NCBI GenBank assembly: GCA_028281025.1
Contig: JANQKR010000007.1
Coordinates: forward strand, 1-38,958
Source: Croceivirga sp.
GTDB lineage: Bacteria > Bacteroidota > Bacteroidia > Flavobacteriales > Flavobacteriaceae
DNA length: 38,958 nt
Direction of reading: 5' to 3'
Part shown: in pieces, positions 6,844 to 21,557 of the stretch
Position numbering within the stretch: the stretch's first letter is position 1
Layout of the letters: the number at the start of each line of letters is the position of its first letter
Position numbers and translations under genes: made by a program
The notes under the pieces: model-generated
Databases searched by the model: none
Seen by the model: only the letters and a program-made list of their open reading frames with translations
Told to the model about the DNA's origin: nothing

Positions 6844-7515
6844 TCAATACTGCAACGTGTTGTTGGCGATCAGTTGTAAAAGCTCTTCTTCCACTCCTTT
6901 ACAAATGACAACACTATTATGCGTACAGTTTTTTAATCGTATGGGGTTAAAATTGTGTATGCTGATGGAAGTTGGTTTAAGTTCTTTTGACAGCAACAGG
7001 GTCAGCATCTCCAGAGCGGCCTTTGCCGTGGAGTACCCCGTCATTTGATAGTCCGCATAACAAAACTCCTCGTCCTTCATCTTTTCAATTTCCCCCAGTG
7101 AACTGGATACATTGACAATGATTGCATTTTCGCTCTTTGACAAAAGGCCATGTAGCCCTTGGATGGTGCGTATCACCGAAAAGAAGTTTTCTTCGAAGAG
7201 TTCTTTGATCTCTTCTATCTTTAGCTCATTGATTTTTTGACCAAATCCATTGGCTATTTCAGCATTGTTTATGAGCACATCCAGCTTTCCATGGGCGTTT
7301 TCGATGTACTGGCTGAGCCTGTCCACACTTTGCTGATCGGTGAGGTCCATTTTGAGGAGTTTGATGCCATGGAGGTCCGTTTTTTCCAGTTCTTGATGAC
7401 TTTTTCCCTTGGCCCCCAATATGACCTCATACCCTTGATTTTGCAAAATGGTTGCAAAGGTCTTTCCCATTCCATTTCCGGCCTCGGTAACCAAAGCAAT
7501 TTGACGCTTTTCCAT
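6844..7515 (-). CDS. Short-chain dehydrogenase/reductase with altered cofactor motif
   Basis: 223 residues from the ATG at 7515; the frame is open further upstream, but the probable -7 box at 7536-7543 lies there, so the ATG at 7515 is preferred. The Rossmann glycine motif reads TEAGNGMG (residues 10-17), with Glu in place of the usual first Gly. The NNAG motif reads NNAE (83-86). The catalytic residues are intact: Ser138/139 in NVSSS, Tyr161 and Lys165 in YSTAK. Known: SDR enzymes use NAD(P)H to reduce or oxidise carbonyls and alcohols. The two substitutions near the cofactor loop are odd and may change cofactor use. It lies 85 bp downstream of the AraC gene on the same strand. Confidence 0.85.
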   Translation of the reverse strand: MEKRQIALVTEAGNGMGKTFATILQNQGYEVILGAKGKSHQELEKTDLHGIKLLKMDLTDQQSVDRLSQYIENAHGKLDVLINNAEIANGFGQKINELKIEEIKELFEENFFSVIRTIQGLHGLLSKSENAIIVNVSSSLGEIEKMKDEEFCYADYQMTGYSTAKAALEMLTLLLSKELKPTSISIHNFNPIRLKNCTHNSVVICKGVEEELLQLIANNTLQY

Positions 7516-7535: not shown

Positions 7536-7597
7536 CAAAGTTCCGAATAGAATTCAAGAAAAAATAACCACTTTCCACTACAAAATGGCACAAATGT
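7536..7597 (-). promoter_or_regulatory. Degenerate copy of the shared AraC-type promoter, upstream of the SDR gene
   Basis: A GAACTTTG -7 box (7536-7543, read on the minus strand) identical to those at 8651 and 16843 is followed by AACC starting at 7566 and a weak second half-site GGCACAAATG at 7587. The spacing is 22 instead of 23 bp, and the second half-site is poor. It may be a weak member of the regulon. Confidence 0.35.
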
Positions 7598-7600
7598 TAA

Positions 7601-8491
7601 CTATAGGGACTGCCTGAACTTATTGGGCGTTGTGCCGCTGTACTTCTTGAAGAAACGTGTGAAGTGTGTCGGTTCCTGAAAGTTGAGTCGATAGGCGATT
7701 TCCGCAACGTCCAAAGTTGTAAAGGAAAGCATGGTCTTGCTTTCCAGAAAAACGCGTTGTTGTATGATATCCTTGGCGGTCTTACCGGTAATCTGTTTTA
7801 TGGTGGTGGTTAGGTAATTAGGGGTCACATTCAGCTGTTGCGCATAATCTCCAACATTTTTTGAATCGACATAGAGTTTGTCCACCAACTGCTGAAACTT
7901 TTGGGTAAGCACCTGTCCTCTGGATAAATGACTTTCGGTGGTCTTGTAACGCTCATAAATGGATTTGCAGTTATAGAGTACCGATGTCAACATGCCCTGT
8001 AACATCCTTTCCTGGTACGGATGGGGGTTTTGAAATACGGAATGCATCCGTTGCATGTCCACCTCCAACGATTGCTGTTCTTCGGGGGTCATTAGGAATA
8101 CACTGTTTTCAGAGAGCTTTAAAAAAGGGAATTCCCCCGTTAGATTGGGAATGGATTTTGAAATGAACTCCTTTCGGAACTGAATATGATATCCAGTGGA
8201 TTCAGCATCCCGAAACCAGGAGAACACCTGACCGGGAACCACGAACCACAACGGCAATTTTTCCAGTTTTACGGCATTGGTATTCAGATTTATTTGACTA
8301 TTGCCCGTATTGCTCAGAATTCCAATTTGGTAAAATCCCTGACGATAAGGGGGCATACACTTTCTTGTGCTTGGCTCCAAGGATTCCAGGGTAAAAATAT
8401 CGAACCCGGGAATATGGCTGCGATGATCGTATCCCGTTGCCTGGTGAAGATCATTACTGGTTTCGAATACCGGAATTTCCTTTTTGGCCAT
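7601..8491 (-). CDS. AraC-family transcriptional regulator (cupin-AraC type)
   Basis: 296 residues from the ATG at 8491 (MAKKEIPVFE); a longer frame starts at 8512. The N-terminal half resembles an AraC-type sensor or arm domain, including GFYQIGILSN and LWFVVPGQVFSWFRD. The C-terminal DNA-binding domain covers about residues 195-296, with VGDYAQQLNVTPNYLTTTIK as the first HTH and VAEIAYRLNFQEPTHFTRFF as the second. The second HTH contains YRLNFQEPTHFTRFFKK, identical to the other AraC protein at 13387-14277. It follows the 30-residue peptide gene by 46 bp and lies downstream of one of the five shared operator/promoters, suggesting autoregulation and making it a candidate master activator of the efflux regulon. 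Confidence 0.9.
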   Translation of the reverse strand: MAKKEIPVFETSNDLHQATGYDHRSHIPGFDIFTLESLEPSTRKCMPPYRQGFYQIGILSNTGNSQINLNTNAVKLEKLPLWFVVPGQVFSWFRDAESTGYHIQFRKEFISKSIPNLTGEFPFLKLSENSVFLMTPEEQQSLEVDMQRMHSVFQNPHPYQERMLQGMLTSVLYNCKSIYERYKTTESHLSRGQVLTQKFQQLVDKLYVDSKNVGDYAQQLNVTPNYLTTTIKQITGKTAKDIIQQRVFLESKTMLSFTTLDVAEIAYRLNFQEPTHFTRFFKKYSGTTPNKFRQSL

Positions 8492-8537
8492 ACTTAAAAA
8501 TAGCAATTTCAAGTTAAGTTGAAGCTACTTTTTCCTT

Positions 8538-8630
8538 CTAAATAATATCACTCACCAGCGCAAAGCCTGTGACCATAATGACAACTGATACTGTTAAATA
8601 AAGCAATGTGATTAAAACGAACTTTTTCAT
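8538..8630 (-). CDS. 30-residue hydrophobic membrane peptide
   Basis: An ATG at 8630 opens a 30-codon frame ending in TAG at 8538. It has a basic start (MKK) followed by one hydrophobic stretch of about 23 residues (LITLLYLTVSVVIMVTGFAL) and a short polar end with one Asp. It therefore looks like a single-pass membrane peptide. Support for it being real is positional: a conserved regulated promoter (8651-8712) sits 20 bp upstream of its ATG, and the AraC gene follows. I know no named family for it. Possible roles are a small modulator of the pump or a leader peptide for the AraC gene. Confidence 0.6.
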   Translation of the reverse strand: MKKFVLITLLYLTVSVVIMVTGFALVSDII

Positions 8631-8650: not shown

Positions 8651-8712
8651 CAAAGTTCAGTCTAAAGCCCCCTTTTTTGTTAACCTAAAACGTATCGAAA
8701 ATGACCAAAATC
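8651..8712 (-). promoter_or_regulatory. Shared AraC-type operator/promoter, site A (small peptide and AraC gene)
   Basis: Read on the minus strand: -7 box GAACTTTG (8651-8658). On the plus strand the proximal half-site AACCTAAAA starts at 8682, 23 bp beyond the box, and the distal half-site GACCAAAATC starts at 8703, 21 bp further. The box ends 20 bp before the ATG at 8630. No TTG -33 element is seen at the usual spacing, as expected of an activator-dependent promoter. Confidence 0.75.
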
Positions 8713-8758
8713 TAATCTACATTAGGCGAGTGGTGCATTGGTCTTCAAAGCACCCCAA

Positions 8759-10090
8759 TTAACTGGGGAGTAATACCTTGATCTTTTTGTTCCTGAACTG
8801 CTTTGAAGCTATCAATAGGGCAATGAGAAGAAAGATAAAACCACCAATCATAAAGACCAGGGTCGTTATTTTTTCAAATAGGATACCTCCCATCACCAGA
8901 CCAAACATGCTGGCAATACTTCCCATGGAAGTACCATACCCCTGAATGGCGCCCTGTGTACTATTAGTACCGGTGCGGGACAATAGTGCCATGAAGCTGG
9001 GCCACATAAGACCATTGCCTAGGGAAAGAAAGGTTATGGCAACGTATAAAAGCACTAATTGCCGTTGGGACAATAAAAAGAAACTTGTGGCCAATAACAA
9101 GGATCCCATAAGTACCAATGCATGACTTGAGAATATTTTGGAAAGTCGATTCAATACCGGTCCCTGGACAAAGAACATAATTAGGCTTGAATAGGCCAGG
9201 AACAGCCCCAAATCCACAGCGGACCAATTAAGCGTACCACTGGCATAAATGGGCAGTCCGGCATAGAAAAGGCTAAAAGCGAAAAAGGTCAGGAAATAGA
9301 CCAGATACAAGATGGGTACCCCACTAATTTTCAAAACCTGTTTTAAGCCATTTCTGTTTTCTGGCAGCAGGGCATCGCTACCTTCCGTAAAGCAGTCTTT
9401 ATGCTCCACTTGAAAAAACCGTCGGACGTTTTTTAGTGAAATGTTTCCAGTGTCAACTATACAGGGGACACTTTCCTCCAGTCTAAAACCGATAACGATT
9501 ATTGCTATTAGGGATATGCCTGCAGCAATCAATAGGGGCAAGACCTCCCCGATTATGGTACTGGCCAGAAGACCTGCAAACGCAGGACCGATCACGAAGC
9601 CCAAACTGGTTGAAGCCCCCATTTTCCCAAAATTTTGGTTGCGGTCCTCATCGGTTGAAATGTCGGACATATATGCATTGGCCACCGATATGTTCCCTCC
9701 GGTAAACCCATCAAGGATACGCGCCAAAAAGATGGTCAAGAGTGGGAGGGTCATGAGGTAAGAACCCGTAAGTTCCGTGTTTTGTCCCCATACTTCCGTG
9801 TTGGGCAGAATAAAGGCCAGAAGGAACAATAGCCATGCCAGAAAAGTACCTGACTGTGATAGCATCAATACCTTTTTTCGTCCAATTTTGTCCGACAACC
9901 TTCCCAAAATTGGGGCACCTATAAATTGAAAGAACGGATAGGTGGCCCCAAGAATTCCATAAATAAAACCATTACCCCCAAAATCGGTGACGATAAAAAT
10001 CAAAATGGGCATCACCACACTGTAGCCCAATATACCGATGAAATTTACCAACAGGATCGGGAAAATTCTGGATTTAAAAAAAGCGAACAA
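8759..10090 (-). CDS. MFS drug:H+ antiporter, TetA-like (DHA1 type)
   Basis: 443 residues with about 12 hydrophobic segments. Motif A between helices 2 and 3 is GRLSDKIGRKK (residues 63-73). The antiporter motif C is recognisable as SLGFVIGPAFAGLLA around residues 163-177. A central hydrophilic loop (about 205-245) separates the two six-helix halves. Known: DHA1 TetA-like carriers export drugs across the inner membrane in exchange for protons. Inferred: efflux of a xenobiotic. It is a monocistronic minus-strand gene; I saw no copy of the shared regulon site in front of it. The substrate cannot be read from the sequence, and tetracycline resistance should not be assumed. Confidence 0.9.
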   Translation of the reverse strand: MFAFFKSRIFPILLVNFIGILGYSVVMPILIFIVTDFGGNGFIYGILGATYPFFQFIGAPILGRLSDKIGRKKVLMLSQSGTFLAWLLFLLAFILPNTEVWGQNTELTGSYLMTLPLLTIFLARILDGFTGGNISVANAYMSDISTDEDRNQNFGKMGASTSLGFVIGPAFAGLLASTIIGEVLPLLIAAGISLIAIIVIGFRLEESVPCIVDTGNISLKNVRRFFQVEHKDCFTEGSDALLPENRNGLKQVLKISGVPILYLVYFLTFFAFSLFYAGLPIYASGTLNWSAVDLGLFLAYSSLIMFFVQGPVLNRLSKIFSSHALVLMGSLLLATSFFLLSQRQLVLLYVAITFLSLGNGLMWPSFMALLSRTGTNSTQGAIQGYGTSMGSIASMFGLVMGGILFEKITTLVFMIGGFIFLLIALLIASKQFRNKKIKVLLPS

Positions 10091-10356
10091 CTTGGATTTG
10101 TTTAGTCAGGACCTGAAGATACTCAATTAATGGGTTGAAGCCGAAGTAAGCCGGAATTAAAAAGATTTTTCAGTTTCACCATTTTAGTGCTCGCCCCAGC
10201 TTTTAAAGAATAGGTCATTTTCCCTTAAACACTGTCCTGGGGTTAATTTAAAATAGCTTTAAGAGCATCAGGCTTGGGCATTTTTATCGGAAAGGGTGTT
10301 TGAACGTACGTTGCCCTGCCGTTGTGCGACGCTTGGATCTGGATATCAATGGATTC

Positions 10357-11178
10357 TTATGCTCCGTTTATGAATTGAATGGCTTGGTCAAGGGCTTCGG
10401 GGGTACGCAAAATCCTGAAATGTCCAGTCCCCGTTAGCTCCATAAAACGTGAATTTTTCCACTGTTCCTTTACTTTTTTTGAACGTTCAATAGGAATCAC
10501 GGTATCATTTTTATCGTGAAGGATCAGTGCTTTTTCCACTTGGATCTGACTCACAAAATCACAAACATTCAACTCGGCCACACTGGATTGCAGTTCTGTT
10601 TCCAATCTGGCGATAAGCCTGTTTTTTACGTTTTCCGTGATGCCTACCTGCTGTGCCACATCATTGATTCGTTCCAAAAACCGGTTGGGCACTGTAAACA
10701 GTACATAGGTCTCAATACTAATATCAGGATTTTTAAAAAGTGCATAGGTTGTGGCGACACCGCCAAAGGAATGGCTGACCAGTTTGGTGACCTCGAACTT
10801 TTTGATCAATACCCCCACGAGTTCCGCGAACTCAAAAAGACTAGTCTTTCCTTTGCTGCTAAATCCGTGGGAAGGGGCATCAAAAGCATAAATGGTATAC
10901 TCATATTGCCGTAAGGCTTGGATTAGATCGGTAAAATTTCCGGCCTGACCTTCCCAACCGTGGATCAACAAAATACGGTTGTCCCCTCCGGGCCAGGTGT
11001 ATAATTGAATGTCAAAGTCCTGAAATCTAAATTTTTCCTGTTCGGCTTGATCCAGAACTACGAGCTCATGGGGTCGCAATTTACGAATTTGCGGGCTGGT
11101 CAATTGATGGTACGCAAAAGCGACCACCCTATTAGGGAAAAGGATGGAGGCTATACGAACAAACCATTTTTTTAGCAC
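10357..11178 (-). CDS. Alpha/beta hydrolase
   Basis: 273 residues from a GTG at 11178. The fold is shown by the oxyanion HG motif ILLIHGWEGQAGNF (69-82), the strand TIYAFDAPSHGFSS, and the nucleophile elbow SHSFGG with Ser137. The acid and base are probably Asp225 (LHDKNDTVIP) and His253 (GTGHFRI). It is cytosolic with a short hydrophobic N-terminus (possibly membrane-associated). The GTG overlaps the stop codon of the decayed membrane-protein gene by 7 bp, so it probably began as the coupled downstream gene of that ORF. Substrate unknown; an esterase or lactonase is plausible. Confidence 0.85.
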   Translation of the reverse strand: MLKKWFVRIASILFPNRVVAFAYHQLTSPQIRKLRPHELVVLDQAEQEKFRFQDFDIQLYTWPGGDNRILLIHGWEGQAGNFTDLIQALRQYEYTIYAFDAPSHGFSSKGKTSLFEFAELVGVLIKKFEVTKLVSHSFGGVATTYALFKNPDISIETYVLFTVPNRFLERINDVAQQVGITENVKNRLIARLETELQSSVAELNVCDFVSQIQVEKALILHDKNDTVIPIERSKKVKEQWKNSRFMELTGTGHFRILRTPEALDQAIQFINGA

Positions 11179-11398
11179 TCGTTTCTAAATCTTACGATTC
11201 GTTCGGTAAAAACCCCGATCCAAAAAGGAATCAAGATAGAAACCAGGGTCGGGACCAGGATTACCGTGGGTGTAAAAGTACGGAATGGGATGGGGAATGT
11301 CCCCAATTCATTCCCAAAATCAGTGCAGGATTCCCATAATTATTGGGTAAATGGCCATTCAGATGATAACGCTGGATTTAAGCCCTTTCTTAAATCCC
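11172..11398 (-). pseudogene. Decayed paralog of the 75-residue two-helix membrane protein
   Basis: Reading the minus strand after the aldo/keto reductase stop, three frames in turn match the intact protein at 14843-15070. First, KKGLKSSVII, then a TGA (11359-11361) where the intact copy has Trp, then MAIYPIIMGI, aligning with KLKTTFIVWIAIYPAITVIL. After a shift LILGMN is readable. After another shift ELGTFPIPFRTF is followed by TVILVPTLVSILIPFWIGVF, aligning with TLVLVPLMVYFLIPFWTRVF. One in-frame stop and two frameshifts mean it cannot be made as one chain. It ends in TAA at 11172-11174, overlapping the GTG of the next hydrolase gene. Confidence 0.75.
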
Positions 11399-12196
11399 GG
11401 ATGTCAATTGATAGGATTGGAGATTTTCCATTACATGTTCCTTGGATGAGGTTCCTGGAATGGAAATTATATGGGGCGCATAGTTCAGAAGCCAGCGTAA
11501 TGACAATTGACTTGTGGTGATATTGTTCTTCCTGGCAATGGTCAAGGTGCTATCCTCCCAATTATTTCTCGACACCGGAGTATGGGCGATGAATGCCATA
11601 TCCAACTCCCCACTCTTTTTAACCACATCCCCAAAACGCCTGTCATTGTAATTGAATGCATTCTGTACCGCATCAATTTGTGCTGTGGATTGTGCCCGCT
11701 CCAATTGTTCTACAGTGACATTGGAGACCCCAATATGCTTTATTTTGCCTTCTTGTTGAAATTGTGCCAAGGCACCTATGGAATTTTCAATGGGAATGTT
11801 CGGGTCCACTTTGTGCAGAAAATAAAGGTCTATGGTTTCTGTTTTCAGCCGTTTTAAACTTCCTTCAAGCGCGGTACGCAAATAATAAGGATGGCCATTG
11901 GGAATTACGGCCCCAGGTTGGTATTTCATAAAACCACCTTTGGTGGCTACCATCACTTCATTTTTGAACGGGGCTACCGCTTCTTGAACCAATAACTCTG
12001 AGGTATATGGGCCATAGGCATCAGCCGTGTCAACGAAGTTTACCCCATTTTCGATGGCCTTTCGGATGACCGCAATGGCATTTTTCCTGTCTGGGGTATC
12101 GCCCCAGATTCCTGCACCTGTGGTGGCCCGCATGGTACCAAAACCAATTCGGTTGATTTCGGAATCCCCTAATTTGAATGTATGTTTTGTTGTCAT
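11390..12196 (-). CDS. Aldo/keto reductase
   Basis: 268 residues, slightly short of the usual 280-320. The catalytic tetrad is intact: Asp56 and Tyr61 in FVDTADAYGPY, Lys86 in VMVATKGGF, and His128 in DLYFLHKVD. The C-terminal NADPH-binding part includes LRWLLNYAPHIISIPGTSS. Known: these cytosolic TIM-barrel enzymes reduce aldehydes and ketones with NADPH. Inferred: carbonyl detoxification. It follows the exported hydrolase gene by 53 bp, and both are likely transcribed from regulated promoter E at 13313-13374. Its stop abuts the pseudogene. Confidence 0.92.
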   Translation of the reverse strand: MTTKHTFKLGDSEINRIGFGTMRATTGAGIWGDTPDRKNAIAVIRKAIENGVNFVDTADAYGPYTSELLVQEAVAPFKNEVMVATKGGFMKYQPGAVIPNGHPYYLRTALEGSLKRLKTETIDLYFLHKVDPNIPIENSIGALAQFQQEGKIKHIGVSNVTVEQLERAQSTAQIDAVQNAFNYNDRRFGDVVKKSGELDMAFIAHTPVSRNNWEDSTLTIARKNNITTSQLSLRWLLNYAPHIISIPGTSSKEHVMENLQSYQLTSGI

Positions 12197-12249
12197 TTTT
12201 ATGCTATTTTATAGCGACGCCCATGAACAGGCGCCGCCATGGATTTGAT

Positions 12250-13275
12250 TTATTCTAATTTTAAATGCTTTTTCATGAATGGGACAACCGCGTCCACTGC
12301 CTGTTGCATTTCGGGATATACATCATAGAAATTGAAGTGGTAACCGGTGCCCCAAACCAGTTCTTTTTCAGTCTGTAACAGGCTGTAAAATTTCTTGGCC
12401 TGATCAGGGATCAAGGCATCATCCGTTGAAAAGACGAGGGTTGGGATTTCGATTTTCCCTGCTTGGCTTATGGGGTCAAACTTTTCGACCCAATTGATCC
12501 AAGCACTCCATGAGACTTCGTTTTTCCAGTTTTTGATGGCCCCTCCACGGTTTTTATCAAAGTAATATTCCCCAGGGGTAAAATTGAAACCTTCTACTTC
12601 TGGGGTGTTGGTAAAGATTTGTGTTTTTTGGTTTTCACCGGTAGCTTCAAAAAGCCGTTGGTTCTCCAATGCACGCTGATGGTTTTTTTCCAATGTTTCC
12701 TTTCCCCAAAAAGGTGCTGCGAGGGCGGGTTCGTACATCCATGGCACTACGGCCGCAATAGCGGCAACTCGGTCGTCGTTGGCTGCAAGGTAAGCGGCAT
12801 TGCCTCCTGAGGTACATACCCCGACCATGCCTATTTTGTCAATATAGGGAAGGTTCTCCAAATAGGTCACCGCTGCTTGTAAATCCTTAAGTTTCCCGTC
12901 CACACTCTCATTTTGTCTTGGCAGGCCATCGCTTTCTCCCCAGCTCGCATAATCAAAGTCAATGACCACAAAGCCCTCTTTGGCCAATAGGCTGGCGTAA
13001 TTGTCGGGCATCATCTCCTTGACGGACGAAACGGACCCTTGGACTATAAGGGCCGGATATTGCCGGGCAGGATCAAATTCTGCCGGCCTGAACAAGTGTC
13101 CTGCCAGACGCAGGTTATCCCTGTGAAAACTAATGTCTTCCTTAGTTACGTTTTCTGTACTGGTTGTTTCCATTTTTTCCATAATTGAAGTATTAACTGA
13201 TGTTTGGGCGTTGACCATTGCCGAAGTGGCAAAGAGTAGGGGCAATAGTTTTTTACTGTTGGGTTTTGTTTTCAT
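12250..13275 (-). CDS. Exported alpha/beta hydrolase with Cys-type nucleophile elbow
   Basis: 341 residues from the ATG at 13275. The longer frame to 13350 runs through the promoter and is rejected. The N-terminus has a basic region and hydrophobic stretch ending in AMVNAQ, a signal peptide suggesting periplasmic location. The hydrolase core includes YPALIVQGSVSSVKE, VVIDFDYASWGESDG and the elbow GMVGVCTSGGNA, which places Cys154 in the nucleophile position (GxCxS). Asp285 or Asp286 (STDDALIP) and His313 (GYHFNF) complete the triad. Cys nucleophiles are known in dienelactone-hydrolase and YcjY-like groups. First gene of an operon with the aldo/keto reductase, under promoter E. Confidence 0.85.
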   Translation of the reverse strand: MKTKPNSKKLLPLLFATSAMVNAQTSVNTSIMEKMETTSTENVTKEDISFHRDNLRLAGHLFRPAEFDPARQYPALIVQGSVSSVKEMMPDNYASLLAKEGFVVIDFDYASWGESDGLPRQNESVDGKLKDLQAAVTYLENLPYIDKIGMVGVCTSGGNAAYLAANDDRVAAIAAVVPWMYEPALAAPFWGKETLEKNHQRALENQRLFEATGENQKTQIFTNTPEVEGFNFTPGEYYFDKNRGGAIKNWKNEVSWSAWINWVEKFDPISQAGKIEIPTLVFSTDDALIPDQAKKFYSLLQTEKELVWGTGYHFNFYDVYPEMQQAVDAVVPFMKKHLKLE

Positions 13276-13312
13276 TGTATTGTTTTTAAAGGGTTTGCTA
13301 CTGATTTCAATA

Positions 13313-13374
13313 CAAAAGTAGATGGGCTGGGACCCGGGAGCGGGACCCAAAACATCAATGGAATGACCAATTTC
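13313..13374 (-). promoter_or_regulatory. Shared AraC-type operator/promoter, site E (hydrolase-aldo/keto reductase operon)
   Basis: The -7 box TACTTTTG (13313-13320, minus strand) fits the Bacteroidetes consensus TAnnTTTG. On the plus strand the proximal half-site GACCCAAAA starts at 13344 (23 bp away) and the distal half-site GACCAATTT at 13365 (21 bp further). The box lies 37 bp before the ATG at 13275. The distal half-site is within 13 bp of the end of the neighbouring AraC gene. Confidence 0.75.
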
Positions 13375-13386
13375 TTGGTTGTAGGA

Positions 13387-14277
13387 TTATTTACGGAAAT
13401 TACCGGGGGTCATTCCCCGATGTTTCTTGAAAAAACGGGTAAAATGTGTGGGTTCCTGGAAGTTTAGTCGGTAACAGATTTCCTTGATGCTAAGATCGGA
13501 ATAGGTCAATAAGTAATCCGCTTCCAACATAATGCGCTCATCAATGATGCTTTTGGCGTTTTTTCCCAAGGTTTCACGAATAAGCTGGCTCAAATAGTTG
13601 GGTGTAATATGCAACATATCCGCATATTCGTTGACCGTTGTAGCCTCTAAAAAGTTTTCATTGACCAGATGCCGATAGCTTGCCACAAGGCCATCGGCTT
13701 CCTTTTGTGCCCTATTCCCTTTGTTCAAATCTTCATAAATCTGGTTGCAAAGCCATAGGATGGCTTGTAGATTGGCCTTTACCAATGCCTGGGCACTGAA
13801 GTCCCCACCATGAAAATTTTCATGGATCTGTTGGTAGTAAAAGTGGCATTGCTCCGCCCTTTTGGGGGATAGGTCAAAAAGGTTGGCTTCATAGATATTG
13901 AAGAATGGAAAATCACTGAGTGCTTTTTCCTGAAATACCTTTCCGACGAATTCGGGTCTAAAGAACATGACAAAACCAGATAGATTGGGTTGTATGCCTT
14001 GCCATTGATGCACTTGCCCTGGGGCATTGAACACCAGATATTTTTCAGGGGTGCGAAAGGTTTTGTCGTTTATTCGGTATTCCAGGGGGGAACCACCCAG
14101 GACTAGGGAAATTTCGAAAAAGGCGTTGCGAAATGGGGTTATCGCCTCGGGGAGTGCTCCCCGTATGCCTTCGTGGGTTCCGATATAGAAAGCCTCTGCA
14201 TTTTTGGAAAGTTCCAGACCCAGAAATCCATAAAGTTCTGAAATGGTCTGGTTTATTGGAATCGCCGAAGTTTTCAT
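13387..14277 (-). CDS. AraC-family transcriptional regulator (cupin-AraC type)
   Basis: 296 residues, the same length and layout as the AraC protein at 7601-8491. The N-terminal sensor half includes FFEISLVLGGSPLEYRINDK and LVFNAPGQVHQWQG. The C-terminal DNA-binding domain has VNEYADMLHITPNYLSQLIR and IKEICYRLNFQEPTHFTRFF. Much of the second recognition helix is identical to the other AraC protein, so they may read the same or overlapping operators. It lies between the cupin gene and promoter E, in the same orientation as the regulon. No shared operator is seen in front of it. Confidence 0.9.
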   Translation of the reverse strand: MKTSAIPINQTISELYGFLGLELSKNAEAFYIGTHEGIRGALPEAITPFRNAFFEISLVLGGSPLEYRINDKTFRTPEKYLVFNAPGQVHQWQGIQPNLSGFVMFFRPEFVGKVFQEKALSDFPFFNIYEANLFDLSPKRAEQCHFYYQQIHENFHGGDFSAQALVKANLQAILWLCNQIYEDLNKGNRAQKEADGLVASYRHLVNENFLEATTVNEYADMLHITPNYLSQLIRETLGKNAKSIIDERIMLEADYLLTYSDLSIKEICYRLNFQEPTHFTRFFKKHRGMTPGNFRK

Positions 14278-14386
14278 ACCCTAAAGATACACTAGTATAT
14301 ATCAAGGATTTGCCATGCCTTGTTCGAAGTGAAAAAGATTGTTTCCCAAAACGGTATTCAAATCGAGCAGTGGAAATCGGATATCC

Positions 14387-14788
14387 TCAAGACAACTCCT
14401 TAGCGCTTAGATTTTCGCCCTCGCGCGGTAAATCGTATTGAATCCATTCGTTGTTTAAATGAATATCTACGGAATCCAATCGTCCAGGACCCACATTTTT
14501 ATAGGCGTGGGGGATGTTTGCAGGCCCAACGACCAAATCCCCTTCCTTAGCAATGAATTTCTTTTCACCTACGGTGAATTCTGCCGTTCCCTCCAGGATA
14601 TGAAAGACCTCATCATAGGGATGCATGTGTAAGTTGGGACCTTCCCCAATTTCGTCAACACTGTAGCGAATGACCACAAAGTTAGCATCATAGGGATGAC
14701 CTTCCAGCACTCCTTTAGGGGGATCTTGTTGCTTCATCCAGTTATTTTTTGGAATATGAACGGGGGCTATTCTTGATTTTTTAGGCAT
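14387..14788 (-). CDS. Single-domain cupin protein
   Basis: 133 residues forming one cupin barrel. Motif 1 is HMHPYDEVFHILEG with His54, His56 and Glu60. Motif 2 includes GDLVVGPANIPHAYKN with His94. These four residues are the usual metal ligands. Small cupins of this kind may be oxygenases, isomerases or binding proteins, so no reaction is assigned. It starts 54 bp after the stop of the 75-residue membrane protein gene and probably shares promoter D, linking it to the efflux regulon. Confidence 0.85.
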   Translation of the reverse strand: MPKKSRIAPVHIPKNNWMKQQDPPKGVLEGHPYDANFVVIRYSVDEIGEGPNLHMHPYDEVFHILEGTAEFTVGEKKFIAKEGDLVVGPANIPHAYKNVGPGRLDSVDIHLNNEWIQYDLPREGENLSAKELS

Positions 14789-14842
14789 GATTGTAATTTT
14801 TGATGTGTTTAAAATTGATGGTTTCGAACATTTTAGTGGGAT

Positions 14843-15070
14843 TTAATCCTTATGGTGAAATCCTTTCTTGGATAGTTTAACTTTCGAAAAAACCCTTGTC
14901 CAAAACGGAATTAGGAAGTACACCATTAATGGCACCAGAACAAGGGTTAAAACCAAGGTTCTTACCAAAATGGGCAAATGGTTCAAGTATGCTCCAAATA
15001 CTGATAATATGACGGTTATTGCCGGATAAATGGCTATCCAAACAATAAATGTGGTTTTTAGTTTTTTCAT
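14843..15070 (-). CDS. Small two-helix membrane protein
   Basis: 75 residues from the ATG at 15070 (GTG at 15073 is possible). A basic N-terminus (MKKLKTT) leads into a first helix, IVWIAIYPAITVILSVFGAY, and a second helix, LVLTLVLVPLMVYFLIPFW, followed by a basic tail. The layout resembles small DUF2798-like membrane proteins, but I could not confirm the family. It is the first gene of the operon with the cupin and lies under regulated promoter D. A decayed paralog lies at 11172-11398 beside the aldo/keto reductase, so such proteins appear repeatedly with this enzyme set. Confidence 0.75.
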   Translation of the reverse strand: MKKLKTTFIVWIAIYPAITVILSVFGAYLNHLPILVRTLVLTLVLVPLMVYFLIPFWTRVFSKVKLSKKGFHHKD

Positions 15071-15106
15071 CACCTCACGATTTTGAATTCCTGTTGATTT
15101 ATGATA

Positions 15107-15168
15107 TAAAGGTACCTTTGGAAACCAGGTTGGACGTAACCAAATTGAAGGGAAAAATGACCAAAATC
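15107..15168 (-). promoter_or_regulatory. Shared AraC-type operator/promoter, site D (membrane protein-cupin operon)
   Basis: The -7 box is TACCTTTA (15107-15114, minus strand). On the plus strand the proximal half-site AACCAAATT starts at 15138 and the distal half-site GACCAAAATC at 15159, again 23 and 21 bp apart. The box lies 36 bp before the ATG at 15070. Confidence 0.75.
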
Positions 15169-15279
15169 CATGGCTTCAAGGCAATGATGAAATAACTAGG
15201 AAAGCACTATTTTATGGGAACGGATTGCAAAGTAGGTATGCCATCAATTTTCACTATGGAAAGGGATTACACTTAATAC

Positions 15280-15320
15280 AAAAAAAAACAGCGACCCCAG
15301 ATGTTGGGAAATCGCCGTTT
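15280..15320 (-). terminator. Rho-independent terminator of the TolC-like gene
   Basis: On the minus strand ACGGCGA pairs with TCGCTGT (one G-U pair), with an inner CCCA/TGGG, and is followed by about nine T residues (plus-strand A-run 15280-15288). It lies 30 bp after the stop of the TolC-like gene. Confidence 0.7.
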
Positions 15321-15349
15321 TGTCCAACACTAAAACGGTTGTTGTGTGG

Positions 15350-16819
15350 TTATTTGGATGCTGACAATTTTATGGTTTCAAACTGCTCCTCCAACTCTTC
15401 CTCGGAAATGATTTCCCATCCTCCGCCCAAGGCTTTGTAAATGGCGATTAAGGATGTGGCCGAAGCAATTTCGCTAATGGCCAATTGGTTTTCGGCCAGC
15501 AATAGGGTATTGTCCGTATTGAGGTAATCTATAAAACTGTCCAAACCCGCATTAAATCGTTTTTGTGCAATTTCCGCTGCTTCTGCACTGGCGATAGCGG
15601 ATTTTTGCAAGGTCTCCCGGCGTTCCAACTCATTGGTATAATTGGTCATTGCCGTGCTGATTTCCTCCAAAGCCTCCAAAACGGTTTTTTCGTAGCGTTG
15701 CAAAGCGGCCAACGTTAAGGCATCATTTTGGTTTATTTGCTGTTTTACCCTACCTAAGTTAAAGGCAGCCCAGCTTATGTTGGGAATAATGCTCCAGGTA
15801 AAGGACTCGTTGTTCCCAAAGTTGGAAAAATCCACTGCGGAAAAGCCGATGGATCCCCCAAACCTAATATTTGGATAGAGTTCGGTAACGGAAAGATTGT
15901 ATTGTGCTATTTGTTGTTGCAATTGGGCTTCTGCCAATCTTACATCGGGACGTCTTCGCAATAGGTCGGTAACGTTTCCAAGGGTTGCCGAAACCGGTAA
16001 ATTGGGAAGTGGCTTTTTGTCCACCAGGCTTTCATCCAGATTTCCGGGGACCTCGCCAATCAAAACGCTCAAGCTGTTCTTTAACGCCGCTATTCTGGCC
16101 TTTAACGGAGGGATGGTCGCACGGGTATTTTCCAACTGGGCCAAGGCACGGGAAACATCCAAACTGTTGCTGGTACCGGCCTCCTTTAATCTTACTGTTA
16201 AATCATAGGTGGCTTGTTGTCCTTTCAGGTTACGTTGGGCAATATCCAATTGGTATTGTGCCCCTCGGAATTCCATGTAATTTCTGGCTACCTCTGCAAA
16301 GATGCTCACGTACACTCCTTGTACATCGGCAAGGGCGGCTTGCTGGTTGGCGTAAGCGCCTTTAATCCGATTGGAAACCCTACCAAAAACATCGGTTTCC
16401 CAAAAGGCATCAAAGCTCCCGCTGTAGGTAGTGAATGTAGGATTGGCCCCGGGAACAAAAATGTTTTCTCCCAAACGGGTTCGGGTAACATCACCATTGG
16501 CGGTAACAGTGGGCAATCGGTCCAGCTTTGTCCCTTTTAGTGCCGCCCGTGAGGCATGGAAGTTGGCAATGCCTGCATTGATTTCCAGATTATGCCTTCT
16601 GGCCTTTTGAATCAAGGTGTCCAAAATGGAATCGTCAAATTCCGACCACCATTCGGTTACCGTTTCACTTTGTGCCTCGTTAAAGGCAACGTGGTCAATT
16701 ACATTTTTTACGTAATCCTGTTCGATTTCAACGTTTGAGTTGACTTCGAAGTCCCTTTTGGTAATTCCACAGGAAACCAGTATGAGGGACAGTAGTATTA
16801 GTAGTGTTGGATTTTTCAT
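15350..16819 (-). CDS. TolC/NodT-family outer-membrane efflux lipoprotein
   Basis: 489 residues, the usual OprM/NodT length. The N-terminus is a lipoprotein signal with lipobox LVSC (Cys about residue 17), so the mature chain is lipid-anchored. Two repeated helical/beta halves are visible: WWSEFDDSILDTLIQKA near 58-74 and long amphipathic helices with NVTDLLRRRPDVRLAEAQL in the second half. Known: such proteins form the trimeric outer-membrane channel of RND pumps. It is the outlet for the AcrA/AcrB-like pair encoded just upstream, but has its own regulated promoter (site B) in the 92-bp gap and its own terminator. Confidence 0.93.
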   Translation of the reverse strand: MKNPTLLILLSLILVSCGITKRDFEVNSNVEIEQDYVKNVIDHVAFNEAQSETVTEWWSEFDDSILDTLIQKARRHNLEINAGIANFHASRAALKGTKLDRLPTVTANGDVTRTRLGENIFVPGANPTFTTYSGSFDAFWETDVFGRVSNRIKGAYANQQAALADVQGVYVSIFAEVARNYMEFRGAQYQLDIAQRNLKGQQATYDLTVRLKEAGTSNSLDVSRALAQLENTRATIPPLKARIAALKNSLSVLIGEVPGNLDESLVDKKPLPNLPVSATLGNVTDLLRRRPDVRLAEAQLQQQIAQYNLSVTELYPNIRFGGSIGFSAVDFSNFGNNESFTWSIIPNISWAAFNLGRVKQQINQNDALTLAALQRYEKTVLEALEEISTAMTNYTNELERRETLQKSAIASAEAAEIAQKRFNAGLDSFIDYLNTDNTLLLAENQLAISEIASATSLIAIYKALGGGWEIISEEELEEQFETIKLSASK

Positions 16820-16842
16820 GTTTTCTATTTTTTAATTATTGT

Positions 16843-16904
16843 CAAAGTTCGGTCCGGATGGGTGCTTCCGGTTAACCAAAAACACCCGTCCTATGACCAA
16901 AATC
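16843..16904 (-). promoter_or_regulatory. Shared AraC-type operator/promoter, site B (TolC-like gene)
   Basis: The -7 box GAACTTTG (16843-16850, minus strand) is identical to site A. On the plus strand the proximal half-site AACCAAAAA starts at 16874 and the distal half-site GACCAAAATC at 16895, with the same 23- and 21-bp spacing. The box lies 23 bp before the ATG at 16819. Confidence 0.78.
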
Positions 16905-16911
16905 TAATATG

Positions 16912-19900
16912 CTATTGTGCCGATTGGATTTGATATTGTGTTGTGTCGATCGTACCCATCTTTTTGGTTTTGGTGGTCCATTTTCTACCCAGGTAATAGA
17001 ACACTGGGGTAAGGAAAATTCCGAATAGGGTAACACCAAGCATTCCGCTGAACACGGCGATACCCAATGCATTCCTCAGTTCAGCACCGGCTCCGGTGGC
17101 GATGGCCAAGGGTACCACCCCTAAAATAAAGGCCATTGCGGTCATTAAAATTGGACGTAAGCGTAGCTTGGAAGCTTCAATAACCGCAGTTTTTAGGTCC
17201 GTTCCCTGATCTTCCAACTGTTTGGCGAACTCCACAATCAATATGGCATTTTTACTGGCAAGACCTACCAGGACCACTAGCCCGATTTGTACCATAGTAT
17301 TATTGTCCAATCCTGCAAGATCGATCCCTATCATGGCGGATAAGAGCACCATGGGCACGATAAAGATAACGGCCAATGGAAGTACCAAACTTTCAAATTG
17401 CGCGGCCAACAGCAAGAATACGAAGACCACGGCGAGTAGGAAGGCGATTCCGGCCGTATTTCCGGTCTGTTTTTGTTGATAGGCCATTTCGGTCCACTCA
17501 AAGGAAATTCCCTGTGGCAATATTTCAGCTGCAAGTTCCTCCATTCGATCTAAAGCCTGTCCTGTGCTAAAGCCAGGAGCGATATCCCCAACCAATGATG
17601 CCGATGGATACAGGTTAAATCTTGGAATCCTGTTAGGTCCGGCAATATCCTTTTGAGTGCTAATGGTACCCAATGGCACCATATCCCCGTACTGGTTTCT
17701 TACCTTGATTCTGGAAATGTCGTCCGGGGTCAATCTATTGGGGGCATCTGCCTGTGCCGTGACCTGATAGGTCCTGCCCAAGTAATTGAATTCGTTGACA
17801 AATGCGGAACCCAGATACACTTCCAGGGATTGGAATACGTCGGCTACATCAATACCCAGTTGTTCGGCTTTTACGCGGTCAATGTCCAAATACAATTGTG
17901 GGGTCTGGTTATTGAAGAACGTAAACACACTATTCAGGATAGGGTCTTGATTCGCAGCAGCGGCCAATTGATATGTCGCGTTCAACAGTGCTTCCGTACC
18001 TAGGTTGGCCCGATCCTGAACCATCATTCGGAATCCCCCTGCATTACCAATACCACGTACGGATGGGGGAGGAATGACCACAACAAAAGCGTCATCCACT
18101 GCCGCCATTTTTGCTCGAAGTGTTCCCAATAGGTCTTCGTAACCAATTCCTTTTTCGGTTCTTACGTCAAAATCCTCAAGGGTGACGAAAATCGCTGCGG
18201 CATTGGAAGCGTTGGTAAAGGAAGCTCCATCAAAACCGGTAAAGGATACGGCGGTTTCTACCCCATCAACTTCCAACAATATGTCAAGGGCATCATTGAC
18301 CACTTTGTCGGTTCGGGTTAGGGAGGCCCCAGGTGGCAATTGAATGGCGGTGATAAAATATTGCTGGTCCATGGCGGGCACAAATCCCGTAGGTACCCTG
18401 TTGAACTGAAATCCCGTAAGGGCAATCAGTCCCCCATATACGATCATGACCATGGTGCTGGTCCTCACCAATTTTCCAACACTATTACCGTACCGTGCGG
18501 AAAGTCCATCCATAAAACGGTTAAAACCGTCACCAATAAATTTAAAAGGGCGTAATAGCCATGGTGATTTTTTCTTATTGTCGTGTGCTTCATGGCGCAT
18601 CAACAATGCCGCCATGGCAGGGCTTAAGGTGAGTGATACGAAAACCGAAATGGCGGTGGCCACGGCAATCGTCAACCCAAATTGTTTGTAGAACTGTCCT
18701 GAGATGCCCTCGAGGAATGTCGTCGGGATAAAAACGGCAATCAATACCAATCCAATGGCCACTAAGGCACCACCAACCTCATCCATGGTTTTTCGTGCCG
18801 CCTCTTTGGGCGACAGTCCCTTGGCCAGATACCGTTCCATATTCTCAACCACAACAATGGCATCATCCACTACGATCCCAATGGCCAGGACCAATCCAAA
18901 CAGGGTGAGGTTGTTCAAGGAGAATCCCAATCCCTGCATCACGGCAAAGGTTCCGATCAAGGAAACGGGGATGGCCAAAATAGGAATGATGGCGGCCCGC
19001 CAGGACTGTAGGAAAAGTAGAATGACCAATATGACGAGTATGATGGCTTCAAAAATGGTGTGGTAAACCTCATCCACTGATTTTTGTACAAATTCGGTAG
19101 GGTTATAGGCAATTTTATATTCCAGGTCTTCAGGGAAATTCTTTGAAAGCTCTGCCACTTTTTCCTGAATGGCAGCAGCGGTTTCAAGGGCATTTCCACC
19201 GGGTTGCTGATAAATGGGCATTGCAATGGCAGGGTCCTTTCCCAAATATCCCTTGGTAGCGTAATTCTGTGCTCCCAATTCGACTCGACCTACATCCTTT
19301 AATTGAACAATACGACCATTTTCACCAGCTTTGATGATGATGTTTTCAAACTGTTCCTGGGTCACCAATTTTCCCTGGGTCTGAACGTTGACTTCAAAGG
19401 CCGATTGGTTACCGGATGGCAAGGTGTTCAAAGTACCGCTGGCAATCTGCACGTTCTGTGCCCTAAGCGCGGAGACCACCTCACCTGCGGTCATATCCAA
19501 ATTGGCGATTCTATCGGGGTCCAACCAAATGCGCATGGCATATTCTGCGGCGCCAAAGATTTGGATATCACCCACCCCTTTAATTCGGGCAATCTGATCG
19601 ATCATCTGTAGGGTGGCATAGTTGCCAATGTAGGTCTGATCATAGGTCTTATTGGGGGAGTACATATTGACCACCAATAGAATATCCGGGGACACCTTGT
19701 TGGTGGTGATTCCCAACCTACGAACGGATTCCGGTAGTCGGGGTTCCGCAATGGCCACCCGGTTTTGGACCTGAACCTGGGCACGATCCAGGTCTGTTCC
19801 CAATTCAAACGCTACTTGGATGGAGACCACTCCATCCGCGGAAGACTGGGAGGTCATATAGATCATTCCCTCCACTCCGTTGATTTCCTGCTCCAAAGGG

Positions 19901-20094
19901 GTGGCAACGGTTTCTGAGAGGGTCTGTGCATTTGCCCCGGGATAGGTGGCCACCACCTGAACGGTTGGAGGGGCTACATCCGGGAACTGTGAAACTGGCA
20001 AGGAGACGTATGCCAATCCGCCCACGATCACGATCAGGATGCTGAGCACCGCTGCGAAAATGGGTCTTTTGATAAAAATGTGACTGAATTTCAT
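16912..20094 (-). CDS. RND multidrug efflux permease (HAE1/AcrB family)
   Basis: 1060 residues from the ATG at 20094 (MKFSHIFIKRPIFA); a 16-residue upstream extension is open but lacks support. The chain shows the AcrB plan: N-terminal helix, periplasmic loop with PPTVQVVATYPGANAQ, helices with GIVVDDAIVVVENMERYL near residues 400-420 (the Asp pair of the proton relay), a second periplasmic loop, and the helix 10-12 block with GLASKNAILIVEFAK carrying the relay Lys. Known: inner-membrane trimer that exports hydrophobic drugs using proton flux. It follows the adaptor gene by 132 bp; the two probably share promoter C. Confidence 0.96.
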   Translation of the reverse strand: MKFSHIFIKRPIFAAVLSILIVIVGGLAYVSLPVSQFPDVAPPTVQVVATYPGANAQTLSETVATPLEQEINGVEGMIYMTSQSSADGVVSIQVAFELGTDLDRAQVQVQNRVAIAEPRLPESVRRLGITTNKVSPDILLVVNMYSPNKTYDQTYIGNYATLQMIDQIARIKGVGDIQIFGAAEYAMRIWLDPDRIANLDMTAGEVVSALRAQNVQIASGTLNTLPSGNQSAFEVNVQTQGKLVTQEQFENIIIKAGENGRIVQLKDVGRVELGAQNYATKGYLGKDPAIAMPIYQQPGGNALETAAAIQEKVAELSKNFPEDLEYKIAYNPTEFVQKSVDEVYHTIFEAIILVILVILLFLQSWRAAIIPILAIPVSLIGTFAVMQGLGFSLNNLTLFGLVLAIGIVVDDAIVVVENMERYLAKGLSPKEAARKTMDEVGGALVAIGLVLIAVFIPTTFLEGISGQFYKQFGLTIAVATAISVFVSLTLSPAMAALLMRHEAHDNKKKSPWLLRPFKFIGDGFNRFMDGLSARYGNSVGKLVRTSTMVMIVYGGLIALTGFQFNRVPTGFVPAMDQQYFITAIQLPPGASLTRTDKVVNDALDILLEVDGVETAVSFTGFDGASFTNASNAAAIFVTLEDFDVRTEKGIGYEDLLGTLRAKMAAVDDAFVVVIPPPSVRGIGNAGGFRMMVQDRANLGTEALLNATYQLAAAANQDPILNSVFTFFNNQTPQLYLDIDRVKAEQLGIDVADVFQSLEVYLGSAFVNEFNYLGRTYQVTAQADAPNRLTPDDISRIKVRNQYGDMVPLGTISTQKDIAGPNRIPRFNLYPSASLVGDIAPGFSTGQALDRMEELAAEILPQGISFEWTEMAYQQKQTGNTAGIAFLLAVVFVFLLLAAQFESLVLPLAVIFIVPMVLLSAMIGIDLAGLDNNTMVQIGLVVLVGLASKNAILIVEFAKQLEDQGTDLKTAVIEASKLRLRPILMTAMAFILGVVPLAIATGAGAELRNALGIAVFSGMLGVTLFGIFLTPVFYYLGRKWTTKTKKMGTIDTTQYQIQSAQ

Positions 20095-20226
20095 GATTTC
20101 TATTTTTTTAGTGTTGGATTGCTTTAGCTTCGTTAAGGACAAGCGTATCCCTGTCGCCCTCTTTTTTCCATTCTTCTTGAATGGAGAGGGCGCTAACGGA
20201 ATACAATAAGATTCTTGGGTTTCTGG

Positions 20227-21453
20227 TTATTCTGTGGATGCCATGGCAAAGGCTTCCTTTGTAGCTACTGGGGATTTTTCGATGGGACGGACCGCAACTC
20301 CCGGTCTAATCTTTTGGATGTTATTGGTAATGAGTTTGTCTTCAGAGGTCAACCCATTTCTAATGATTCGCAATCCATTGGTGTGCAATGGGCCTAATTC
20401 TATATTTTTGGCGGCGACCGTATTGTCCTCACCCAAAACATAAACGAAACGAACGGATTGGTTGGTCCCTATAATTTCATCGGGTATCATTATGGCTTCG
20501 TGTTCCGCACTGCCCAACAATCTTGCCTTTCCGAACATTCCAGGTTCAATAAGGCCATCTTCGTTGTCCAATGTGGCACGTCCCTCTATGGTCCCGGTAC
20601 TTCTATCAATTTCATTGTCCACAAAATCCATAACGGCTTCGTGGGTATAGTCGGCTTCATCCTGGAGTTTCAATAGCACTGGATTTGCAGTGGAACGTGA
20701 GGAACCCCTTTCCCCATTTTGGGCCAGGCGGGAATACTTCAAATAGTCCGATTCACTTCCCCTAAAGTAAAAGTGGATGGGGCTGGTGGCCACAATTGTG
20801 GTAAGGAGCGTTGAATTTGATGAACCACCATCTATCAAGTTGCCCTCATTCACCATATCCCGACTTACCCGACCGGAAATTGGTGCCTTTACCCTGGTAA
20901 ATTCTAGGTTCAACTTGGCATTGTCCACAGCGGCCTGGGCCAATTGCAGTGTAGCTTTTGCCCCTGCCAATGCCTGTTGCCTATGATCATACTCCTCCAA
21001 GGAAACCGCTCCCGATTCACGTAGGGACCGAACACGGTTAAAGTTATCCTGGGCCGTTGTTAAATTGGCCAGTGCCTGACCGTAACCAGCCCTGGCCTGG
21101 TTCAATGCAATTCTAAAGGGGCGTTGGTCTATGGTAAAGAGAACATCACCTTTTGTAACGTCCTGGCCATCCTTAAAACTTACGTTTTCAATATAACCGC
21201 TCACCCTTGCCCGGACTTCCACCCGGTTGCTGGCTTCGAAACGACCGGTATACTCGTCCCATTCGGTGATTTTTTCAAATATGGGATGGGAAACCTCTAC
21301 CTGGAGTCCTTGTGGCTCGTTTTGTGCCAATTCCTTTTTTTCTGTTTTGTCAAAGGCCGAAAAGACCACTAATGCCATTACGGCCAGCATCATGGTAAAA
21401 ATCACGAAGACCCTTACACCTAAATTGCCGTTTTTTAAATTGATTGTTTTCAT
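20227..21453 (-). CDS. RND efflux periplasmic adaptor (AcrA-type membrane-fusion protein)
   Basis: 408 residues. An uncleaved membrane anchor or signal (residues 14-32) is followed by the barrel/lipoyl segment VEVRARVSGYIENVSFKDGQ, a helical hairpin rich in Ala/Gln/Leu (about 115-190), and the returning lipoyl half FTRVKAPISGRVSRDMVNEG. The C-terminal beta-barrel and membrane-proximal domains contain GTIEGRATLDNEDGLIEPGM. Known: AcrA-type hexamers link the RND permease and TolC. First gene of the adaptor-permease operon under promoter C. Confidence 0.95.
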   Translation of the reverse strand: MKTINLKNGNLGVRVFVIFTMMLAVMALVVFSAFDKTEKKELAQNEPQGLQVEVSHPIFEKITEWDEYTGRFEASNRVEVRARVSGYIENVSFKDGQDVTKGDVLFTIDQRPFRIALNQARAGYGQALANLTTAQDNFNRVRSLRESGAVSLEEYDHRQQALAGAKATLQLAQAAVDNAKLNLEFTRVKAPISGRVSRDMVNEGNLIDGGSSNSTLLTTIVATSPIHFYFRGSESDYLKYSRLAQNGERGSSRSTANPVLLKLQDEADYTHEAVMDFVDNEIDRSTGTIEGRATLDNEDGLIEPGMFGKARLLGSAEHEAIMIPDEIIGTNQSVRFVYVLGEDNTVAAKNIELGPLHTNGLRIIRNGLTSEDKLITNNIQKIRPGVAVRPIEKSPVATKEAFAMASTE

Positions 21454-21495
21454 TGTACTGTATTTTATTTTTTGTGTTGCTTAAATTTTACAGTA

Positions 21496-21557
21496 CAAAT
21501 GTATTTGGGGAAGACACCCGGGCGTTAACCAAAATCATAGTGGAAATGACCAAAATG
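21496..21557 (-). promoter_or_regulatory. Shared AraC-type operator/promoter, site C (adaptor-permease operon)
   Basis: The -7 box TACATTTG (21496-21503, minus strand) is a perfect TAnnTTTG. On the plus strand the proximal half-site AACCAAAAT starts at 21527 and the distal half-site GACCAAAATG at 21548, with 23- and 21-bp spacing. The box lies 42 bp before the ATG at 21453. Confidence 0.8.

Follow-up and report, generated by a model that had tools for sequence, protein, structure and literature searches.

A 38,958-nt stretch of a Croceivirga sp. genome (Bacteroidota; Flavobacteriaceae; GenBank assembly GCA_028281025.1, contig JANQKR010000007.1), referred to here as the window, contains a minus-strand island of efflux and redox genes in which promoter sites of one design recur. 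The adaptor, permease, and outer membrane channel of a resistance-nodulation-division (RND) efflux system are present together, each scoring above its model cut-off (TIGR01730, NF000282, and TIGR01845), and the island also encodes a short-chain dehydrogenase/reductase (SDR) and the two AraC-family regulators AraC1 and AraC2 (Table 1). From sequence comparisons, the sites are very probably operators of an island-encoded class II activator of the AraC/XylS type, with AraC1 as the most likely candidate.

A sequence-only reading of the window had described five sites of 62 bp, and their coordinates, letters, and spacings all match the DNA. The target genes that it named also proved to be correct, namely those for the RND adaptor, the outer membrane channel, a small membrane protein and a cupin, a hydrolase and an aldo/keto reductase, and a 30-codon open reading frame (ORF) followed by an AraC protein; its list did not include a degenerate sixth site between araC1 and the SDR gene. 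All five sites lie on the minus strand and are oriented toward the minus-strand genes downstream. Read in gene direction they have the form ATTTTGGTCA-N13-TTTtGGTT-N23-TAnnTTTG, with AAATTGGTCA and TTTGGGTC as the half-sites of the variant site 4. The half-sites, a distal ATTAG-ATTTTGGTCATTT and a proximal TTTTGGTTAnC, repeat with a period of 21 bp and are followed at a constant distance by a -7 box, TAnnTTTG, as in Bacteroidota sigma-A promoters, which stands 20 to 42 nt ahead of the ATG. Among the five boxes, two are complete matches, two carry G in place of the first T (GAACTTTG), and the last base of one is A (TACCTTTA).

Table 1. Features of the island, with coordinates of associated genes in related loci
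Feature	Position	Strand	Remarks
Site 1	21496..21557	-	before acrA-like gene; -7 box TACATTTG; ATG 42 nt downstream
acrA-like RND periplasmic adaptor	20227..21453	-	HlyD_D23; TIGR01730 above cut-off
acrB-like RND permease	16912..20142	-	ACR_tran; NF000282 1356.1 (cut-off 1250)
Site 2	16843..16904	-	before tolC-like gene; -7 box GAACTTTG; ATG 23 nt downstream
Long hairpin enclosing site 2	16842..16907	-	distal half-site paired with GACCGAA by -7 box; z -6.0; kept in relatives
tolC-like outer membrane channel	15350..16819	-	OEP; TIGR01845 265.1 (cut-off 210.05)
Site 3	15107..15168	-	before small membrane protein and cupin genes; -7 box TACCTTTA; ATG 36 nt downstream
Small hydrophobic protein, 75 aa	14843..15070	-	kept in relatives
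Cupin protein	14387..14788	-	Cupin_2
AraC2, second AraC-family regulator	13387..14277	-	HTH_18; 31% identity to AraC1
Site 4, AAATTGGTCA subtype	13313..13374	-	directly behind araC2, before hydrolase gene; -7 box TACTTTTG; ATG 37 nt downstream
Alpha/beta hydrolase	12250..13275	-	Abhydrolase_1
Aldo/keto reductase	11390..12196	-	Aldo_ket_red
Major facilitator superfamily transporter	8759..10090	-	closest NCBIfam models are tetracycline efflux, score far under cut-offs; no recognised site of its own
Site 5	8651..8712	-	before small ORF and araC1; -7 box GAACTTTG; small-ORF ATG 20 nt downstream
30-codon hydrophobic ORF	8538..8630	-	between site 5 and araC1; 70-96% similar in L008, L009, L010, L016; possible leader peptide or small membrane protein
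AraC1, probable activator	7601..8512	-	relatives at 40 loci; predicted fold
Site 6, degenerate	7536..7595	-	before SDR gene; -7 box GAACTTTG one base nearer than at sites 1-5; ATG 20 nt downstream
SDR oxidoreductase	6844..7515	-	adh_short
AraC3 in relatives	L009:2124-2894; L010:41-811; L011:5260-6180; L014:6984-7754; L016:6095-7045		third AraC type
ORF of 147-164 codons in relatives	L021:3347-3855; L023:3345-3853; L027:3326-3853; L030:3231-3746; L033:3259-3773; L040:3307-3839		between the two sites upstream of acrA

Site recurrence and spacing

We searched the 5.1-Mb genome with the three-block pattern TTGGTCAT-N12-TTTGGTT-N23-TAVNTTTG, allowing up to 3 mismatches. The five matches are exactly the five sites, and the reversed control gave none, which rules out occurrence of the spaced motif at chance frequency. 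The two half-sites alone (TTGGTCA-N14-TNGGT) have 24 exact matches in the genome, and a -7 box stands in register in only five of these, all of them the sites of the window. Within its own genome, the motif is limited to the island, and a dispersed genome-wide regulon was rejected on this count. If the sites form a regulon, as we infer from sequence, it would be a cluster-confined one of the AraC/XylS type.

The sites were also scored with two matrices. Half-site matrix 1 was trained on 22 of the 24 acrA-upstream sites of other genomes, with L022 and L028 (near-identical to L020) excluded, and it gave four of the window sites 25.0 to 30.5 bits, while the highest score in 30 first-order Markov windows was 16.1. 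Matrix 2 includes the -7 box and was trained with cluster-type relatives added and the window and L008 excluded; it is not fully independent because orthologous promoters were included. With it, the five sites scored 34.6 to 51.6, while 20 second-order Markov windows gave no score above 7.8; scoring of these windows was limited to positions that have GGT in one half-site or the other. A chance origin of the sites was rejected on the genome scan, both matrices, the 5 of 24 matches with a -7 box in register, and the rigidity of the spacing.

This rigidity extends to relatives. Across 41 sources (the window and loci L008 to L047, oriented along araC1), [AG]..TTGGTCA occurs 142 times forward and 53 times in reverse. 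Of the forward cases, 61 have GGTT or GGTC at +21, while no reverse case does and no other offset between 8 and 44 has more than 3; for 58 of 62 pairs, a -7-like box is present at +27, counted from the proximal GGT. In the histogram of half-site gaps, a gap of 14 counts 36 for L008 to L047; 24 more come from L048 to L071, loci collected by that very pattern. The -7 box is shifted by one base in L041, and GATC stands in the proximal half of L030, L031, and L033 and in the distal half of L044.

A looser site definition, applied with the 27% identical L047 excluded, yielded 76 sites from 40 sources, every one of them on the same strand as araC1; removal of one chance match (L022:1839) left 75, or 51 after dereplication. 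Since these sites were picked by GGTCA (or GATCA), GGT[TC]-like letters at +21, and the -7 letters, conservation there exists by construction. At the positions free of selection (-7 to -1, 0 to 4, 10 to 12, 22 to 25, 30, 32, 53, and 61), ATTAG-ATTTT is found 5' of GGTCA and TTT 3' of it, while TTTT precedes the proximal GGT and A and C come after. The -33 TTG, an element of Bacteroidota sigma-A promoters, is absent in 74 of the 75 sites, with a TTG 17 to 23 bp upstream of the -7 box in only one. The spacer between the proximal half-site and the -7 box has a G+C content of 50%, compared with 35% upstream and 25% downstream (75 sites, 40 sources).

Similar sites within one island and on a single strand could also be copies of one promoter segment that was duplicated along with the genes, without any common regulation. 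However, the spacers vary while the half-sites and their distances persist, between genera too, and unused copies would drift, so that we regard this explanation as very improbable.

Association of the sites with AraC1

Relatives of AraC1 were found at 40 loci in genome contigs, one of which (L047) is only 27% identical. Operon-type loci have the gene order acrA-acrB-tolC-araC1-SDR, and a site lies 84 to 148 bp upstream of the acrA match in all 24 examined; L026, whose contig begins in acrB, stands outside this count. In a sample of family genomes, AraC1 is present (E up to 1e-70) in 6 of 299. Motif matches with at most 1 mismatch occur in five of these six and in none of the 293 others. Allowing up to 2 mismatches brings in all six and 14 of the 293, with 11 matches for the reversed control in that table. 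The corresponding Fisher P values, which ignore kinship among the genomes, are 3e-10 and 4e-8.

One AraC1-positive genome, G030, is new and was picked up by the motif first; it contains the full operon including araC1, with a site of 36.6 bits. A broken AraC1 in this genome was considered and rejected, as the TAA at residue 3 of the matched stretch precedes the first ATG at residue 7. The congeneric genome G164 has neither the motif nor AraC1. No match to AraC1 was found in a plasmid collection at E up to 1e-30, and in a phylum sample it was found in 1 of 395 genomes, which adds no test because that genome is the one studied here.

Judged by this co-occurrence, AraC1 is the constant partner of the sites. 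An unlinked regulator from outside the AraC family that binds the sites would leave unexplained both the co-occurrence of motif and araC1 in the family sample and the AraC/XylS geometry, and it is accordingly scarcely to be expected. The attribution to AraC-type activators made in the sequence-only reading is itself supported by direct repeats 21 bp apart and a fixed distance to the flavobacterial -7 box, kept across genera and tied to an AraC gene in the 299-genome sample. AraC2 is by its distribution accessory: of 397 family genomes, two have it (G000 and G217, both AraC1-positive).

The predicted fold of AraC1 joins a RhaR/AraC-like sensor domain to a MarA-like double helix-turn-helix (HTH). 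According to the model, the protein would thus have both the AraC-type N-terminal sensor/dimerisation domain and the C-terminal double HTH of the AraC/XylS family. Identity with HpaA, the 4-hydroxyphenylacetate regulator, was rejected, as TIGR02297 gives 108.2 bits for AraC1 and 93 for AraC2 against a cut-off of 274.65. At the island edge, on the opposite strand, lies a gene for a Rob-like AraC protein with a GyrI-like domain (4724-5581, +), where a site of this type is absent.

AraC paralogues, possible island growth, and the tolC hairpin

Several observations weigh against a single activator, AraC1, acting through all the sites. Site 4 fits matrix 1, the AraC1-operon matrix, poorly, with 6.7 bits that this matrix does not tell from chance. 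Box A of the proximal half-site shows weak conservation. Of the five further AraC1-positive genomes, four repeat known loci (with the site letters of L012, L027, L033, and L044), so that the family test and the locus test overlap. Finally, AraC2 has the HTH2 stretch of AraC1, NFQEPTHFTRFFKK, and could bind the same sites; the two proteins are 31% identical.

A third type, AraC3, carries HFDNPTHFVRFVKK and occurs in five loci (Table 1), and the araC2 and araC3 paralogues sit directly before AAATTGGTCA-type sites. Among the 75 sites, a script flagged eight as starting at most 14 bp from the end of an araC2 or araC3 gene, and all eight read AAATT or AAAAT; among the other 67, 52 read ATTTT and five AAATT or AAAAT. 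This pattern suggests divided specificity, in which AraC1 would read ATTTTGGTCA-type sites and AraC2, or AraC3 in relatives, the AAATTGGTCA-type site right behind its own gene. The poor score of the site behind araC2 and the difference in HTH1 between the paralogues point the same way. However, the likeness of these sites may reflect shared descent, and at araC3 the site's first A is the last A of the stop codon, where the AAATT/AAAAT site begins in four of the five loci (not L014). The five unflagged AAATT or AAAAT sites also speak against division, though one of them, L009:5794, does follow araC2. We regard divided control as a tentative reading, less likely than not.

The degenerate site 6 consists of ATTTGTGCCATTT and AAAGTGGTTATT with the 21-bp period and a -7 box one base nearer. 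Alone it scores 13.0 bits with matrix 1, which is not significant; an element of this type with the -7 box in register lies behind araC1 in 20 of the 41 sources. The island of G217, which shares its site letters with L012, has ten sites under the looser definition, on one strand over about 21 kb. These precede acrA, tolC, a SnoaL-like gene, the membrane protein-cupin pair, an SDR gene, a hydrolase gene, genes for a TauD-type dioxygenase and an F420-type oxidoreductase, araC1, and a further SDR gene. Ten of the 24 operon-type loci have a second site, about 660 to 730 bp upstream of acrA. An ORF of 147 to 164 codons, whose start resembles a signal peptide by eye, stands between the two acrA-upstream sites in all six loci inspected.

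The tolC promoter begins directly behind acrB, and its sequence forms a long inverted repeat as well, with pairing between the distal half-site and GACCGAA next to the -7 box. Its RNA fold has an energy of -33.0 kcal/mol, compared with -15.1 (standard deviation, 3.0) for shuffled sequences (z -6.0), and hairpins at the tolC promoter of relatives give z scores of -7.6 (L009, 262-336), -6.0 (L011, 2893-2967), and -4.8 (L102, 1494-1565). For six sequences, which include two near-identical couples (the window and L008, and L009 and L018), 24 base pairs are predicted; two of these have changes on both sides, three have a single broken cell each, and several are G-U. No hairpin of this kind appears between acrB and tolC in 15 operon-type loci (z -2.6 to +2.1 against mononucleotide shuffles). 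A palindrome as a general feature of the sites was not borne out, as sites 1, 3, and 5 fold like shuffled sequences and site 4 has a z score of -2.8, and an intrinsic terminator was rejected because no U run lies behind the hairpin. The hairpin would fall within RNA read through from the acrA promoter, and it may work in RNA or as a second, inverted operator.

The inverted half-site-like stretch beside the -7 box of the tolC promoter could also be taken to mean that the regulator bound at the sites is a repressor. However, the -7 box lies beyond the downstream end of the repeats and the -33 TTG is absent, which together suit an activator-dependent promoter, and we consider repression quite unlikely.

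Activation by AraC1 remains our preferred reading, and with it goes a more speculative, somewhat doubtful picture of how the island grew. The rigid promoter may act as a portable plug, with which an island built on an acrAB-tolC-araC1-SDR core would gain detoxification genes that each bear their own copy of the AraC1-type promoter. Inserted AraC paralogues would have diverged to read the variant site directly behind themselves, and the tolC operator, folded into a hairpin, would serve in DNA as an activator-dependent promoter and in the acrAB read-through RNA as a structured element. If true, this dual role would let the channel and the pump be set separately.

Predicted activation and known systems

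From the sites, their spacing, their linkage to araC1, and the predicted fold, we infer binding, activation, and an inducer as follows. AraC1 would sense a small molecule via its RhaR/AraC-like domain, and its MarA-like double-HTH domains would occupy both half-sites. The sigma-A -7 box of Flavobacterium psychrophilum covers positions -12 to -5 (PMC9723704). The same placement here would put GGTTA at -39 to -35 and GGTCA at -60 to -56. The direct repeats, at about -69 to -35 from a start site set in this way, thus have the class II geometry of the AraC/XylS family, close to the core promoter. The occupant of the proximal half-site, at about -39 to -35, could then substitute for the missing -33 contact and recruit RNA polymerase. 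The units switched on by AraC1 in this way would be those of the pump and its channel, of the membrane protein with the cupin, of the hydrolase with the reductase, and of the SDR, as well as araC1 itself; site 5 before araC1 suggests positive autoregulation.

The kind of control is well known, and the instance is apparently undescribed: among the papers listed by a literature search largely without subscription papers, none described a Bacteroidota AraC protein that controls RND efflux through this operator. For an AraC-type regulator of this phylum, the island supplies a concrete predicted operator together with a partner protein and targets that can be tested. It suggests that class II AraC/XylS activation operates on Bacteroidota -7-type promoters without a -33 element, that a local regulon seems to grow through added genes bringing the same promoter, and that the channel gene of an efflux pump can have its own structured promoter.

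The pumps MexEF-OprN and OqxAB are controlled by other regulator families. Their models match the island system below cut-off (MexE, the best adaptor model, 368 bits with a cut-off of 714; OqxB, 1150 bits with a cut-off of 2200), and, unlike in those systems, the AraC gene lies behind tolC in operon-type relatives. In the alignments with Escherichia coli RhaR and AraC, AraC1 is 9 to 10% identical to their sensor domains and 23% identical to the AraC DNA-binding domain.

The nearest parallels are XylS at Pm of the Pseudomonas putida TOL plasmid and CphR at cphA2A1 of Rhodococcus, both AraC/XylS class II activators. XylS has 15-bp direct repeats with boxes TGCA and GGTA and 6 bp between them (PMC5481539). 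CphR has TGCA-N6-GGNTA repeats at -35 to -69, in which the sub-motif at -35 to -39 shares two bases with the -35 hexamer (PMC6205950). In both, as in the island, a pair of direct repeats with a 21-bp period and a box B containing GG lies between about -69 and -35. The agreement in position and box B is close. Unlike in those systems, box A in the island is ATTAG rather than TGCA and is clear in the distal half-site only, the core promoter is of the Bacteroidota -7 type, the site stands on several units of one island, and its predicted targets are efflux and redox genes.

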